Assembly (NCBI GenBank): GCA_030018315.1
Contig: JASEGA010000021.1
Coordinates: 1 to 35,712, forward strand
Source: a bacterium
GTDB lineage: Bacteria; Hydrothermota; UBA3073; JACQXS01; JAGMCI01
Length of the DNA stretch: 35,712 nt
Direction: 5' to 3'
Part shown: positions 2,839 through 27,671 of the stretch, in pieces
Layout of the letters: each line of letters starts with the position of its first letter
Numbering within the stretch: the first letter of the stretch is position 1
Translations under genes and position numbers: made by a program
Notes under the pieces: generated by a model
What the model was told of the DNA's origin: nothing
Seen by the model: only the letters and a program-made list of their open reading frames with translations
Database searches by the model: none

Positions 2839-3000
2839 CGCCGCCGACAGGAATCGGACCTCCACACCCAGCTCCGTCCCGCACAAAATAGTGTGCCCGG
2901 AGGGACTTGAACCCTCAACCATTGGCTCCGGAGGCCAACGCTCTATCCAATTGAGCTACGAGCACATTTGTGCGGGATAGCCATTGAGCTACGGGGGCTC
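2839..3000 (-). other. Degenerate tRNA-like halves enclosing the tRNA-Arg gene
   Basis: On the minus strand, 2998 reads GCCCCCGTAGCTCAATGG, a standard tRNA 5' half (acceptor strand plus D-stem start). After the complete tRNA-Arg, 2860-2840 reads a T-arm-like GGTCCGATTCC followed by CGGCGGC, which pairs with GCCCCCG at six of seven positions. Between these halves and the tRNA-Arg lies an 11-bp perfect inverted repeat (2877-2887 and 2967-2977). No anticodon arm remains in the outer copy, the T-loop has C instead of T at position 55, and the T-stem is imperfect. I read it as a broken tRNA, or a tRNA-like fold, carrying tRNA-Arg at the tip of an extended stem. Confidence 0.55.
2892..2965 (-). tRNA. 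tRNA-Arg (anticodon CCG)
   Basis: All arms fold: acceptor GTGCTCG with CGGGCAC (one G-U pair), D-stem GCTC/GAGC, anticodon stem TTGGC/GCCAA around loop CTCCGGA (anticodon CCG, reads CGG), and T-arm GAGGG-TTCAAGT-CCCTC. Discriminator A is at 2892. CCA is not encoded (the 3' continuation is CTATTTT). Closely matches the usual bacterial tRNA-Arg(CCG). Confidence 0.94.
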
Positions 3001-3061
3001 CCTTCTCAATCGAGATAAATTCTTCTGTTATAATAGTCCATAAGTTCATAAATGTCAATAT

Positions 3062-4012: not shown

Positions 4013-4039
4013 GTAGGGGCAGGGTTACCCTGCCCCTAC
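4013..4039. repeat. 27-bp perfect palindrome (element copy A)
   Basis: Arms GTAGGGGCAGGGT and ACCCTGCCCCTAC are perfect 13-bp complements around one central base. Same length and consensus as the two copies inside purL (26887-26913 and 26997-27023). Lies between the pbp and MBL genes, with no T-tract beyond it, so it is not a typical intrinsic terminator. Confidence 0.92.
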
Positions 4040-23996: not shown

Positions 23997-26900
23997 ATGT
24001 TTAGAATTGAAGTAAAAAAGAAAGATAATATAGAAGGCGATAAGCTTAAGAAAGATATATTTGACCTCGGAATTAATGTCCAGTCTGTAGAAGTCATCTA
24101 TACTTATTTAATTTTTGGTAACCTTACAAAAATTGATGTTCAAAGAATTGCACAAGACTTGCTTGCAGATAAAGTATGGGAAACATATAAGATAAATCCT
24201 AAACGCCAAATGCTAAATGCTAAATGCTTTACTATTGAGGTAGCTTATAATCCTGGCGTTATGGATGCAGTAGCTATAAGTGTAGTTAAGGGAATGCAGG
24301 ATTTAGGAATTAAAGGAGTAGAAGCAGTAAAGACAGCTAAAAAGTATTTAATTACAGGGGCACTGTCAAAACAGGAGCTTGAATTTGTAGCTGATAAGCT
24401 ATTAGTTAACCGCACTATTCAGCATATTGTTAGAAATGAAGAATATATTGTTACAACTCCAAAGTATTCTTTTAAACTCGTATCTGTAGATTTACTTACT
24501 GCATCAGATAAGGACTTATTGAACATAAGTAAACGTGGTATGCTTGGTCTTAATTTAATTGAGATGAAAGCAATTCAAAAGCATTTTATGAAACTTGCAC
24601 GCAACCCTACTGATGTTGAGCTTGAGACAATAGCACAGACTTGGTCTGAGCATTGTGTACATAAGACATTTAAGTCAATGATTGAGTTTAACGGTAAGCT
24701 TATTCCACCACTTATTGATACAATTATGCAGGTCACAAATGAACTATCACCAAGCTGGTGTGTATCTGTTTTCAAGGATAATGCAGGTATAATCAAATTT
24801 GGCGACGGCTACAATATCTGCTTCAAAGTAGAGACCCATAATCATCCGTCAGCACTTGAGCCATATGGTGGGGCAGGCACTGGTATAGGTGGTGTCATTA
24901 GAGACCCATTGGGGACAGGACTTGGTGCTAAGCCAATCCTGAATACAGATGTGTTTTGCTTTGGACCACCAGATTATCCTCATAAAAGACTACCACCGGG
25001 AACACTGCATCCACTTCGTATTATGAAAGGGGTAGTAGCTGGTGTTAGAGATTACGGTAATAAAATGGGTATACCAACAGCGAATGGCGCAGTTTTGTTT
25101 GATGATAGATACATTGGTAATCCAGTAGTTTATTGTGGCACTGTTGGCTTAATACCTGATGATAAGTGTAAAAAAGAAGTAGTATGTGGTGACTTAATTG
25201 TCCTTGTTGGTGGTAGGACTGGCAGAGATGGTATTCATGGTGTTACATTTGCATCAATTGAGCTTACTAAGGAGTCTGAAGAGATTTCAAGTGGTGCTGT
25301 CCAGATTGGTAACCCAATAACTGAAAAGAAGCTTGTTGATATACTTTTAAAAGCAAGAGATAGAGGTCTTTATCGTGCTATAACAGACTGTGGTGGCGGT
25401 GGTCTATCATCAGCTATAGGTGAACTTGCACACTCAACCGGAGCAATAGTTGATTTGGATAAAGTGCCACTTAAATATGAGGGGCTTTCCTACAGTGAAA
25501 TATGGATATCTGAGGCACAGGAGCGTATGATAATATTTGTGCCACCAAAAAAATTAGCCGAATTACTCGAATTATGCAGAAGTGAAGATGTAGAGGCTAC
25601 TGTTATTGGTGAAGTTACCGATGATAAGACATTGATACTTAGGTATGAAGGCAATGTTGTTGGCAAACTTGATATGAAGTTCCTGCATGAAGGGTTACCT
25701 TTACCTATAAAGTATGCAAGTTGGAAGCCGAAAAAGTTTAATGAGCCCAAGTATATTGAACCTAAGGACTTAACCCCATATTTATTGTGTATACTTTCAA
25801 GTTTAAATGTTTGTAGCAAAGAGTGGGTTATTCGACAGTATGACCATGAGGTGCAAGGTGGTAGTGTATGTAAGCCACTTGTTGGCTATGATGGGCCAGG
25901 TGATGCCTGTATTGTAAGACCATTACTTAATTCTAACCGTGGTATTGTTATTGGCTGTGGTATTAATCCAAAGTATGGTGACCCTGAACTTGATTCAGGG
26001 GACCCGTATTGGATGGCAGGCTCGAATATTGACGAGGCAATACGAAATGTTGTAGCAGTGGGCGCTAATCCTAAGCGTGTCGCAATACTTGATAACTTCT
26101 CTTGGGGTAACCCGGATAAGCCGGATAGGTTAGGTGAGCTTGTTCGTGCTGTTCAAGGCTGCTATGATATAGCTAAGGCTTACAAGCTACCATTTATATC
26201 TGGAAAAGACTCGTTAAATAATGAATACAAAATAGGGAAGCGCTCAATCTCAATACCACCGACACTACTTATCTCTGCTATTGGGATTATAGAAGATATA
26301 AATAAAGCAGTCTCTATGGACTTAAAGGCTTCCAATGACCTTATATACATAATTGGTAAGACATATAATGAACTTGGTGGCTCTCATTATTACGAAATAC
26401 GGAGCTTTGTGAGTAATTGTGTTCCAAAAGTGAGACCCAAGCCATCGCTATTTAGCGCTCTTCATAACGCAATAAAAACTGGTCTTGTTAAGGCATGCCA
26501 CGACTGTTCTGAAGGCGGTATAGGCGTAACATGTGCGGAGATGTGTTTTGCAGGCGGGATAGGGATGAAAGTATGGCTCAATAAGGTAATTTGTGGGGAA
26601 ACTATTACCAAAAATGACCAAATATTATTCTCTGAATCTAACTCAAGATTCATTGTAGAAGTAGCAAGAGAAAACAAATCTGAGTTTGCGAGTATGCTAT
26701 CAGAAATTGATTTTGCTGAGATTGGAATAACTACTAATAGAGATGAGTTAGAGATATTTGGATTAAATGGTAAGCCGATTGTGAAGTCAAAAATTAGTGC
26801 TCTCAAATCTGCATGGCAGAAGCCACTTAGGTTACAAAGAATAGAACATAAGAAGCAAGAAGCAATAGGCACTGAGCCAGTCCATTGTAAGGGCGGGGTA

Positions 26901-27671
26901 ACCCCGTCTATACGTAAATATAGTAAAACACGCACACTAATTTTAAGGACTGCTGGCACTAACTGTGATATAGAGACTAAAGTTGCGTTTGAGGTTGTAG
27001 GGGCGAGGTCATCTCGCCCCTACATCGTTGACTTGGTTCATATAAATGAACTAATAAGACATAAAAAGTCGCTTAATGACTACGACATACTTGTCATTCC
27101 CGGTGGCTTTACTTATGGGGATGATATTTCAGCCGGTAAGATACTTGCAAATGAGCTAAGATTTAAATTAGGTGAAGATGTAGATAAATTTGTTACTTCT
27201 GGTAAGCTTATACTTGGAATTTGTAACGGGTTTCAGGTGCTTGTCAAGCTTGGTTTACTACCTTATGGTAAATTAGGTGAACAAGTTATCACTCTAACTA
27301 ACAATGTATCAGGTCTATTTCAATGTGAGTGGGTAGCGCTTGAAGCTCCCAAGACTAACTGTATATTTACAAAAGGGATTGATGAAATTGAGCTCCCAAT
27401 TGCACACGCTGAGGGTAGGTTTGTAGCACAACCATCAATAATAAAAGAACTTAATAAAAATAGACAAGTAGCACTTAGATACAAAGGTTATAATCCAAAT
27501 GGCTCAATGGACAACATTGCTGGTATATGTGACACGAGTGGCAGAATATTTGGGCTTATGCCACACCCAGAAAGGTTCATATTTGAGACACAATATCCAA
27601 GATGGACGAGAGCTAAAAAAGAACCACAAGGATTGATAATTTTTAGGAATGCAGTTGAATACATTCAATGA
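23997..27671 (+). CDS. purL: Phosphoribosylformylglycinamidine synthase, single-chain PurS-PurL-PurQ fusion
   Basis: 1224 residues. Fourth step of purine synthesis: FGAR + glutamine + ATP to FGAM. Two PurS-like alpha/beta repeats (about 1-165), the synthetase core with TWSEHCVHK, FKVETHNHPSALEPYGGAGTG, CGGGGLSSAIGELAHSTG, SEIWISEAQERM, WGNPDKPDRLGELVRA and FISGKDSLNNEY, then a class I glutamine amidotransferase domain from about 980 with VIPGGFTYGDDISAGKI, Cys1076 in GICNGFQ, LPIAHAEGRF and MPHPER. Length and order match the one-chain clade found in Clostridia and bifidobacteria. Odd: palindromic DNA elements lie in frame at residues 662-668, 964-972 and 1001-1009, and a heptamer repeat at about 69-78. 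All active-site motifs survive. First gene of an operon with a macrodomain and an OsmC gene. Confidence 0.96.
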   Translation: MFRIEVKKKDNIEGDKLKKDIFDLGINVQSVEVIYTYLIFGNLTKIDVQRIAQDLLADKVWETYKINPKRQMLNAKCFTIEVAYNPGVMDAVAISVVKGMQDLGIKGVEAVKTAKKYLITGALSKQELEFVADKLLVNRTIQHIVRNEEYIVTTPKYSFKLVSVDLLTASDKDLLNISKRGMLGLNLIEMKAIQKHFMKLARNPTDVELETIAQTWSEHCVHKTFKSMIEFNGKLIPPLIDTIMQVTNELSPSWCVSVFKDNAGIIKFGDGYNICFKVETHNHPSALEPYGGAGTGIGGVIRDPLGTGLGAKPILNTDVFCFGPPDYPHKRLPPGTLHPLRIMKGVVAGVRDYGNKMGIPTANGAVLFDDRYIGNPVVYCGTVGLIPDDKCKKEVVCGDLIVLVGGRTGRDGIHGVTFASIELTKESEEISSGAVQIGNPITEKKLVDILLKARDRGLYRAITDCGGGGLSSAIGELAHSTGAIVDLDKVPLKYEGLSYSEIWISEAQERMIIFVPPKKLAELLELCRSEDVEATVIGEVTDDKTLILRYEGNVVGKLDMKFLHEGLPLPIKYASWKPKKFNEPKYIEPKDLTPYLLCILSSLNVCSKEWVIRQYDHEVQGGSVCKPLVGYDGPGDACIVRPLLNSNRGIVIGCGINPKYGDPELDSGDPYWMAGSNIDEAIRNVVAVGANPKRVAILDNFSWGNPDKPDRLGELVRAVQGCYDIAKAYKLPFISGKDSLNNEYKIGKRSISIPPTLLISAIGIIEDINKAVSMDLKASNDLIYIIGKTYNELGGSHYYEIRSFVSNCVPKVRPKPSLFSALHNAIKTGLVKACHDCSEGGIGVTCAEMCFAGGIGMKVWLNKVICGETITKNDQILFSESNSRFIVEVARENKSEFASMLSEIDFAEIGITTNRDELEIFGLNGKPIVKSKISALKSAWQKPLRLQRIEHKKQEAIGTEPVHCKGGVTPSIRKYSKTRTLILRTAGTNCDIETKVAFEVVGARSSRPYIVDLVHINELIRHKKSLNDYDILVIPGGFTYGDDISAGKILANELRFKLGEDVDKFVTSGKLILGICNGFQVLVKLGLLPYGKLGEQVITLTNNVSGLFQCEWVALEAPKTNCIFTKGIDEIELPIAHAEGRFVAQPSIIKELNKNRQVALRYKGYNPNGSMDNIAGICDTSGRIFGLMPHPERFIFETQYPRWTRAKKEPQGLIIFRNAVEYIQ
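24201..24228. repeat. Heptanucleotide tandem repeat inside purL
   Basis: AAACGCC followed by three AAATGCT units, in frame between the two PurS-like repeats of the protein. Confidence 0.65.
25982..26000. repeat. 19-bp palindrome inside purL
   Basis: CCCTGAA, CTTGA, TTCAGGG, with further GACCC on the right flank. Encodes part of GDPELDSGDPYW, where family members I recall read GDIDPYW, so about five extra residues (662-668 region). Confidence 0.7.
26887..26913. repeat. 27-bp palindrome inside purL (element copy B)
   Basis: Arms GTAAGGGCGGGGT and ACCCCGTCTATAC, same length and consensus as copy A at 4013-4039 with three arm mismatches, so older. Read as CKGGVTPSI (964-972) in the linker before the glutaminase domain. 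Confidence 0.85.
26997..27023. repeat. 27-bp palindrome inside purL (element copy C)
   Basis: Arms GTAGGGGCGAGGT and ATCTCGCCCCTAC (one mismatch). Exactly nine codons, read as VGARSSRPY (1001-1009) within the glutaminase domain, in a different frame of the element than copy B. Confidence 0.92.

Follow-up and report, generated by a model that had tools for sequence, protein, structure and literature searches.

Nested tRNA genes in a Hydrothermota contig and in related genomes suggest a possible mobile unit, so far undescribed, that puts its own copy in place of a tRNA gene

Why does a complete tRNA gene lie between the two halves of another tRNA gene? The question is raised by a locus in contig JASEGA010000021.1 of an uncultured bacterium, of which 35,712 nucleotides were analysed (this whole stretch of DNA is called the window). 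The original prediction placed a complete tRNA-Arg(CCG) inside the halves of another tRNA, and this was confirmed with ARAGORN and Rfam, which call that gene (2965-2892, minus strand) as the sole cloverleaf of the locus; the cloverleaf is complete and scores 70 bits against an Rfam gathering cut-off of 29. All features of the nested locus are on the minus strand, from 2998 to 2839. Read 5' to 3' on that strand, a promoter-like sequence is followed by the outer 5' half, the left arm, 1 base, the tRNA, 4 bases, the right arm and the outer 3' half:

3030..3058, minus strand: predicted sigma-70-like promoter, TTGACA-17-TATTAT, 31 bp upstream of the outer 5' half (consensus scan, 11/12)
2978..2998, minus strand: outer tRNA-Arg 5' half, GCCCCCGTAGCTCAATGGCTA (acceptor strand, D-stem 5' strand, part of the D-loop)
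2967..2977, minus strand: left inverted-repeat arm, TCCCGCACAAA (exact repeat)
2892..2965, minus strand: inner complete tRNA-Arg(CCG) (ARAGORN, Rfam, genome tRNA inventory)
2877..2887, minus strand: right inverted-repeat arm, TTTGTGCGGGA (exact repeat)
2839..2876, minus strand: outer tRNA-Arg 3' half, CGGAGCTGGGTGTGGAGGTCCGATTCCTGTCGGCGGCG (anticodon CG, anticodon-stem 3' strand, T-arm with one mismatch, acceptor strand, discriminator G)

The two arms form a perfect 11-bp inverted repeat, located exactly where it had been predicted. A perfect repeat of this length was found in 14 of 20,000 shuffles of the window flanks, and no other tRNA of the source genome (G000) has a flanking inverted repeat above 9 bp. 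The unit measured from arm to arm is 101 bp long, and the tRNA is its only content. An Rfam scan of the locus found no intron and no RNA family besides tRNA, so that a self-splicing intron or another RNA family was rejected; a match to YrlA is below threshold (17.8 bits against a cut-off of 69) and is caused by the tRNA part.

The outer halves, here called the shell, are the remains of a tRNA-Arg gene. Their acceptor strands pair at 6 of 7 positions when read from the sequence, as anticipated, the exception being one C:C. The 3' half had been described as a T-arm plus acceptor strand; both are there, together with part of the anticodon and the 3' strand of the anticodon stem, because this half opens within the anticodon (CGGA, then GCTGG). 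Between them the halves lack three pieces of a tRNA (D-stem 3' strand, anticodon-stem 5' strand and part of the anticodon loop), and joining the halves would therefore give no tRNA. With both halves taken together the best isotype match of the shell is Arg, which led to rejection of the idea that the outer tRNA is the missing Asn tRNA of G000. (Both tRNA-Asn(GTT) and tRNA-Arg(TCT) are absent among the 45 tRNAs found in this genome, whose assembly is rated 96.5% complete.) The inner tRNA differs in sequence from the outer one, both halves of which are dead. A search for a second tRNA-Arg(CCG) turned up none among the 45 tRNAs of G000, leaving the inner gene as the only one.

The window's locus is one of a series. 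A search with the outer 5' half provided the first lead, and further cases were found by pattern and covariance-model searches; at least nine nested tRNA loci are present in relatives within the phylum, covering six isotypes (Arg, Thr, Gly, Ile, Ala and Val). G001, the nearest relative, has nested Ala(TGC), Ile(GAT) and Gly(TCC) genes. Gly(TCC) is also nested in G007, Val(TAC) in G005, Thr(TGT) in G098, and Thr(GGT) in G000, in several genomes of family f12 and in G092. In G000 a nested Ile gene just downstream of the 16S rRNA gene has a decayed shell whose acceptor is still paired at 7/7 positions. Remnants with one outer half surround Gly and Thr(TGT) in G000, Gly and Val(GAC) in G005, and Val(TAC) in G007. 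A covariance model of the nested structure (R1) scores intact nests above 140 bits and does not separate decayed ones; with the best 20 candidates per genome scored, the window reached 83.5 bits, similar to other, apparently plain tRNAs. No viral contig with the cassette pattern was found.

Two of these loci can be compared with an uninterrupted counterpart. In G011, from the same class, the 5' half of an outer tRNA-Arg(TCG) is followed by CCCCACACC, a different and complete tRNA-Arg(TCG), GGTGTGGGG and the outer 3' half, whose first bases are exactly the anticodon TCG. In the congener G014 the outer Arg(TCG) tRNA is uninterrupted, and the two loci are syntenic, with 489 bp upstream at 96.5% and the tRNA 3' half at 97.8%. 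The two genomes thus hold the filled and the empty version of one Arg(TCG) site. Thr(GGT) is likewise nested in G000 and intact in its family-mate G001, with the same small gene downstream. An empty version of the window's own Arg(CCG) site was not found in near relatives, because the adjacent metallo-hydrolase (P0001) has no clear ortholog in them.

The nests follow common rules. For each of the 11 nested shells that retain both halves, the highest isotype score is that of the inner tRNA; among five one-half shells, three match the inner isotype and two give no clear assignment. In the nests with a legible or placeable outer anticodon (Arg TCG, Thr GGT, Thr TGT), this belongs to the same isoacceptor as the inner one, and inner and outer tRNA are on the same strand in every nest. 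The stems mostly open with TCCCG, TTCCG or CCCCG (G011 and the decayed Thr nest of G000 are exceptions), the arms of other intact nests are 7-11 bp long, and arms and the inner flank CACTTTTG(G)T are common to different classes. In the Ala, Ile, Gly and Val nests the stem replaces tRNA positions 27-43 exactly, while part of the outer anticodon arm is retained in the Arg and Thr(TGT) nests. No target duplication was seen at the nests. Preservation of the shell varies widely: Gly and Val shells are fully paired, T-stems are broken in the Ala and Ile shells, both Arg shells have lost a D-stem strand, the shell T-arm is damaged or deleted in G113-G115, and the shell is almost wholly eroded in G021, G100, G102 and G002.

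The ancestry of the inner genes is clearest for Thr(GGT), a locus surveyed in about 40 genomes. The 39 sequences compared fall into a native type (GCCCA..., 20/39) and a GCCTGG type (19/39), which form separate clades with support of 100/99. In G000 and several f12 genomes the GCCTGG type sits inside recognisable remains of a GCCCATG-type shell; in other genomes its surroundings are eroded. Since the type label is itself based on sequence, the argument rests on how the types are distributed across hosts. The embedded GCCTGG-type genes in native-type shells of f1, f12 and f32 form one clade (100/99), in families that otherwise have the native type. G000 and G001, from one family, carry different types at the same site; the G000 type and its inner flank are common to f12, which belongs to another class; and the gene of G092 (f32) groups inside f12. 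The tree of inner Thr(GGT) genes is in conflict with the host families, and the shells are the native tRNA in stages of decay. For the window's inner Arg(CCG), identity is about 92% to the gene of one f28 genome and 84-89% to those of three f10 genomes, and 68-69% to Arg(CCG) of f2, from the same order; its placement in the tree has modest support.

How could such nests arise? Probably a promoterless tRNA cassette of ~100 bp, bounded by inverted repeats, enters the resident isoacceptor gene at its anticodon arm, where it comes under the resident promoter and assumes the function of the resident tRNA, and the shell around it then decays. At the window's locus, a unit of arm, complete tRNA-Arg(CCG) and arm would have landed in the anticodon arm of a resident tRNA-Arg in the same orientation, destroying it. 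The inner tRNA would then be transcribed from the resident's promoter and, by the processing route that we infer, cut out by ordinary tRNA 5' and 3' processing. Once it was the only tRNA-Arg(CCG), the host would depend on the cassette, and the outer halves would erode as a relic. A promoter would not fit into the cassette, which would therefore need to land in the sense direction in a transcribed tRNA gene, and the isotype rule would follow from selection, since a cassette with the same isoacceptor should make up for loss of the resident; presumably only sense-strand insertions with the same isoacceptor survive. A promoter-like sequence precedes the outer half in the window, at Thr(GGT) of G000 and at Val of G005, five other loci checked have no promoter-like match upstream, and the Gly nest of G001 sits in a tRNA cluster. 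The original prediction that a tRNA-Arg copy had inserted into a tRNA and broken it was right in essence, although the event is no one-off and belongs to a recurrent, isoacceptor-matched replacement.

A broader form of this model is given slightly better than even chances: a mobile element with a promoterless tRNA as its sole cargo would spread by replacing the cognate isoacceptor gene, the host would become dependent on it, and repeated rounds would nest tRNA genes like Russian dolls. The cassette would move as a unit, probably with horizontal transfer. No transposase or recombinase was found linked to it, and an enzyme of some known type may still turn out to mobilise it. The Thr(TGT) nest of G098 has arms CCCCGCACC, a free palindrome with these arms at the same locus, and upstream a second Thr-like 5' shell that ends in TCCCGCATC and whose 3' partner was not found; this arrangement is consistent with two successive insertions. 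In G001 (contig C30, loci L247 and L328), Gly(CCC) and Val(GAC) lie together between the half-palindromes TCCCGCAC and GTGCGGGA, behind a Gly 5' shell, possibly as a two-tRNA cassette.

The nest arms also occur as free-standing palindromes of ~24-26 bp (TCCCGCAC...GTGCGGGA), with 49 copies in G001, 5 in G004, 4 in G005 and 1 in G007; G000 has no arm palindrome of that form. Dispersed palindromes with the same arms suggest that one system acts on both palindromes and cassettes. Several of the palindromes L199-L211 (G001, G004, G005, G007) are in the loop of another inverted repeat, and others are within long open frames. The window has a second palindrome family, GTAGGGGC...GCCCCTAC, at 26996-27024 and 4013-4039. 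The former copy is in frame inside a large purL-like ORF (23997-27671), to which it adds roughly VGARSSRPYI, and it resembles insertion of a palindromic element into a protein-coding gene. Partial Thr copies lie beside intact Thr(GGT) in G003 (L293), G006 (L294) and G012 (L296); in these copies a hairpin, TCCCGCC...GGCGGGA, stands exactly in place of the anticodon arm, and an inner tRNA is absent.

Nests might instead have arisen locally, if a palindrome formed, or a hairpin was repaired, in one of two tandem copies of a tRNA gene and one copy thereby came to lie inside the other with no mobile cassette. The shared isotype of inner and outer tRNA speaks for this, as do the partial tandem copies of Thr that carry hairpins in G003, G006 and G012, and the fact that no enzyme was found. 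The exact replacement of positions 27-43 in the Ala, Ile, Gly and Val nests also fits, and it counts against the cassette, since simple insertion does not predict it; together with the hairpin-only copies it leaves room for a hairpin-replacement or repair mechanism. We nevertheless regard a local origin as unlikely: the inner Thr(GGT) genes of distant families form one clade that differs from the local native type, the arms and inner flank recur in different classes, and the window's inner Arg(CCG) is closer to that of distant families than to that of its own order.

A second alternative, which we judge quite improbable, is a functional composite RNA, in which a tRNA-like shell is kept and its anticodon arm forms an extended helix bearing a whole tRNA, with a role in processing, stability or some non-decoding function. 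The Gly shells of G001 and G007 differ at 2/72 positions and their inner tRNAs at 9/73 (Fisher p = 0.056), in comparison with the usual tRNA-Gly the acceptor and D-stem of these shells have changed in pairs, the Gly and Val shells are fully paired, and the folding of the composites is better than that of shuffled sequences (z -2.7 to -3.6). Against this stand the broken Ala and Ile T-stems, the D-stem strand absent from both Arg shells, and the persistence of the inner tRNA where the shell is half or wholly lost (Gly in G000 and G005; G021, G100, G102). The tRNA-in-tRNA precursor first suggested for the locus is unsupported as a general reading, because shells in every state from complete to wholly eroded surround inner tRNAs that are still intact; the intact Gly and Val shells make a functional tRNA-in-tRNA RNA possible in some cases. 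An assembly error fusing two ordinary tRNA genes, named at the outset as a possible refutation, is barely credible even though the genomes may be metagenome assemblies, because the same anatomy recurs in independent assemblies of several families, including the single-contig genomes G112 and G113, and inverted repeats, isotype and strand all agree.

Genes for tRNA count as stable landmarks, exploited by mobile DNA and kept intact by it. In the present loci, essential tRNAs have been destroyed again and again, and an isoacceptor of separate ancestry, embedded in the remains, has taken their place. The recurrence of this gene-inside-gene replacement for six amino acids suggests a mobile unit, so far undescribed, that substitutes its own copy for a tRNA. 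If the cassette model is true, it describes a selfish route to fixation through instant essentiality and a borrowed promoter, and a mechanism for the horizontal replacement of tRNAs. Such shells escape annotation, ARAGORN and Rfam having given only the inner gene here.

A search of open-access papers for tRNA-in-tRNA genes gave nothing relevant, and several known systems share part of the pattern. Integrative elements that target tRNA genes (tyrosine-recombinase islands and proviruses) usually use the anticodon stem-loop, and transcription of the resulting gene depends on the resident promoter (reviewed in PMC8371274). They are alike in that mobile DNA enters tRNA genes (PMC8371274), but they have an integrase, direct att repeats and a restored resident tRNA, whereas the cassette is ~100 bp long, holds a tRNA alone between inverted ends, and leaves both outer halves dead, a separate tRNA substituting for the destroyed resident. 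Introns and split or permuted tRNAs likewise have an insertion in or near the anticodon loop; unlike these, the insert here is itself a tRNA, and its removal leaves the outer tRNA incomplete because part of it is missing. REP/REPIN and MITE-like repeats are short, dispersed, non-autonomous palindromes, with copies in open frames; the perfect 11-bp arms are inverted-repeat ends of the same kind, and the arm palindrome is dispersed in G001 and in a few copies in G004, G005 and G007 but has no copy of that form in G000. Unlike the cassette, tRNA cargo or tRNA replacement is not reported for such elements in, for example, PMC3116915 and PMC3733652. In fungal mitochondrial plasmids a tRNA on a mobile element likewise replaces the host copy and creates dependence (PMC9925561); there the tRNA is on the plasmid and the host gene is lost, whereas here the substitute lies inside the host gene.
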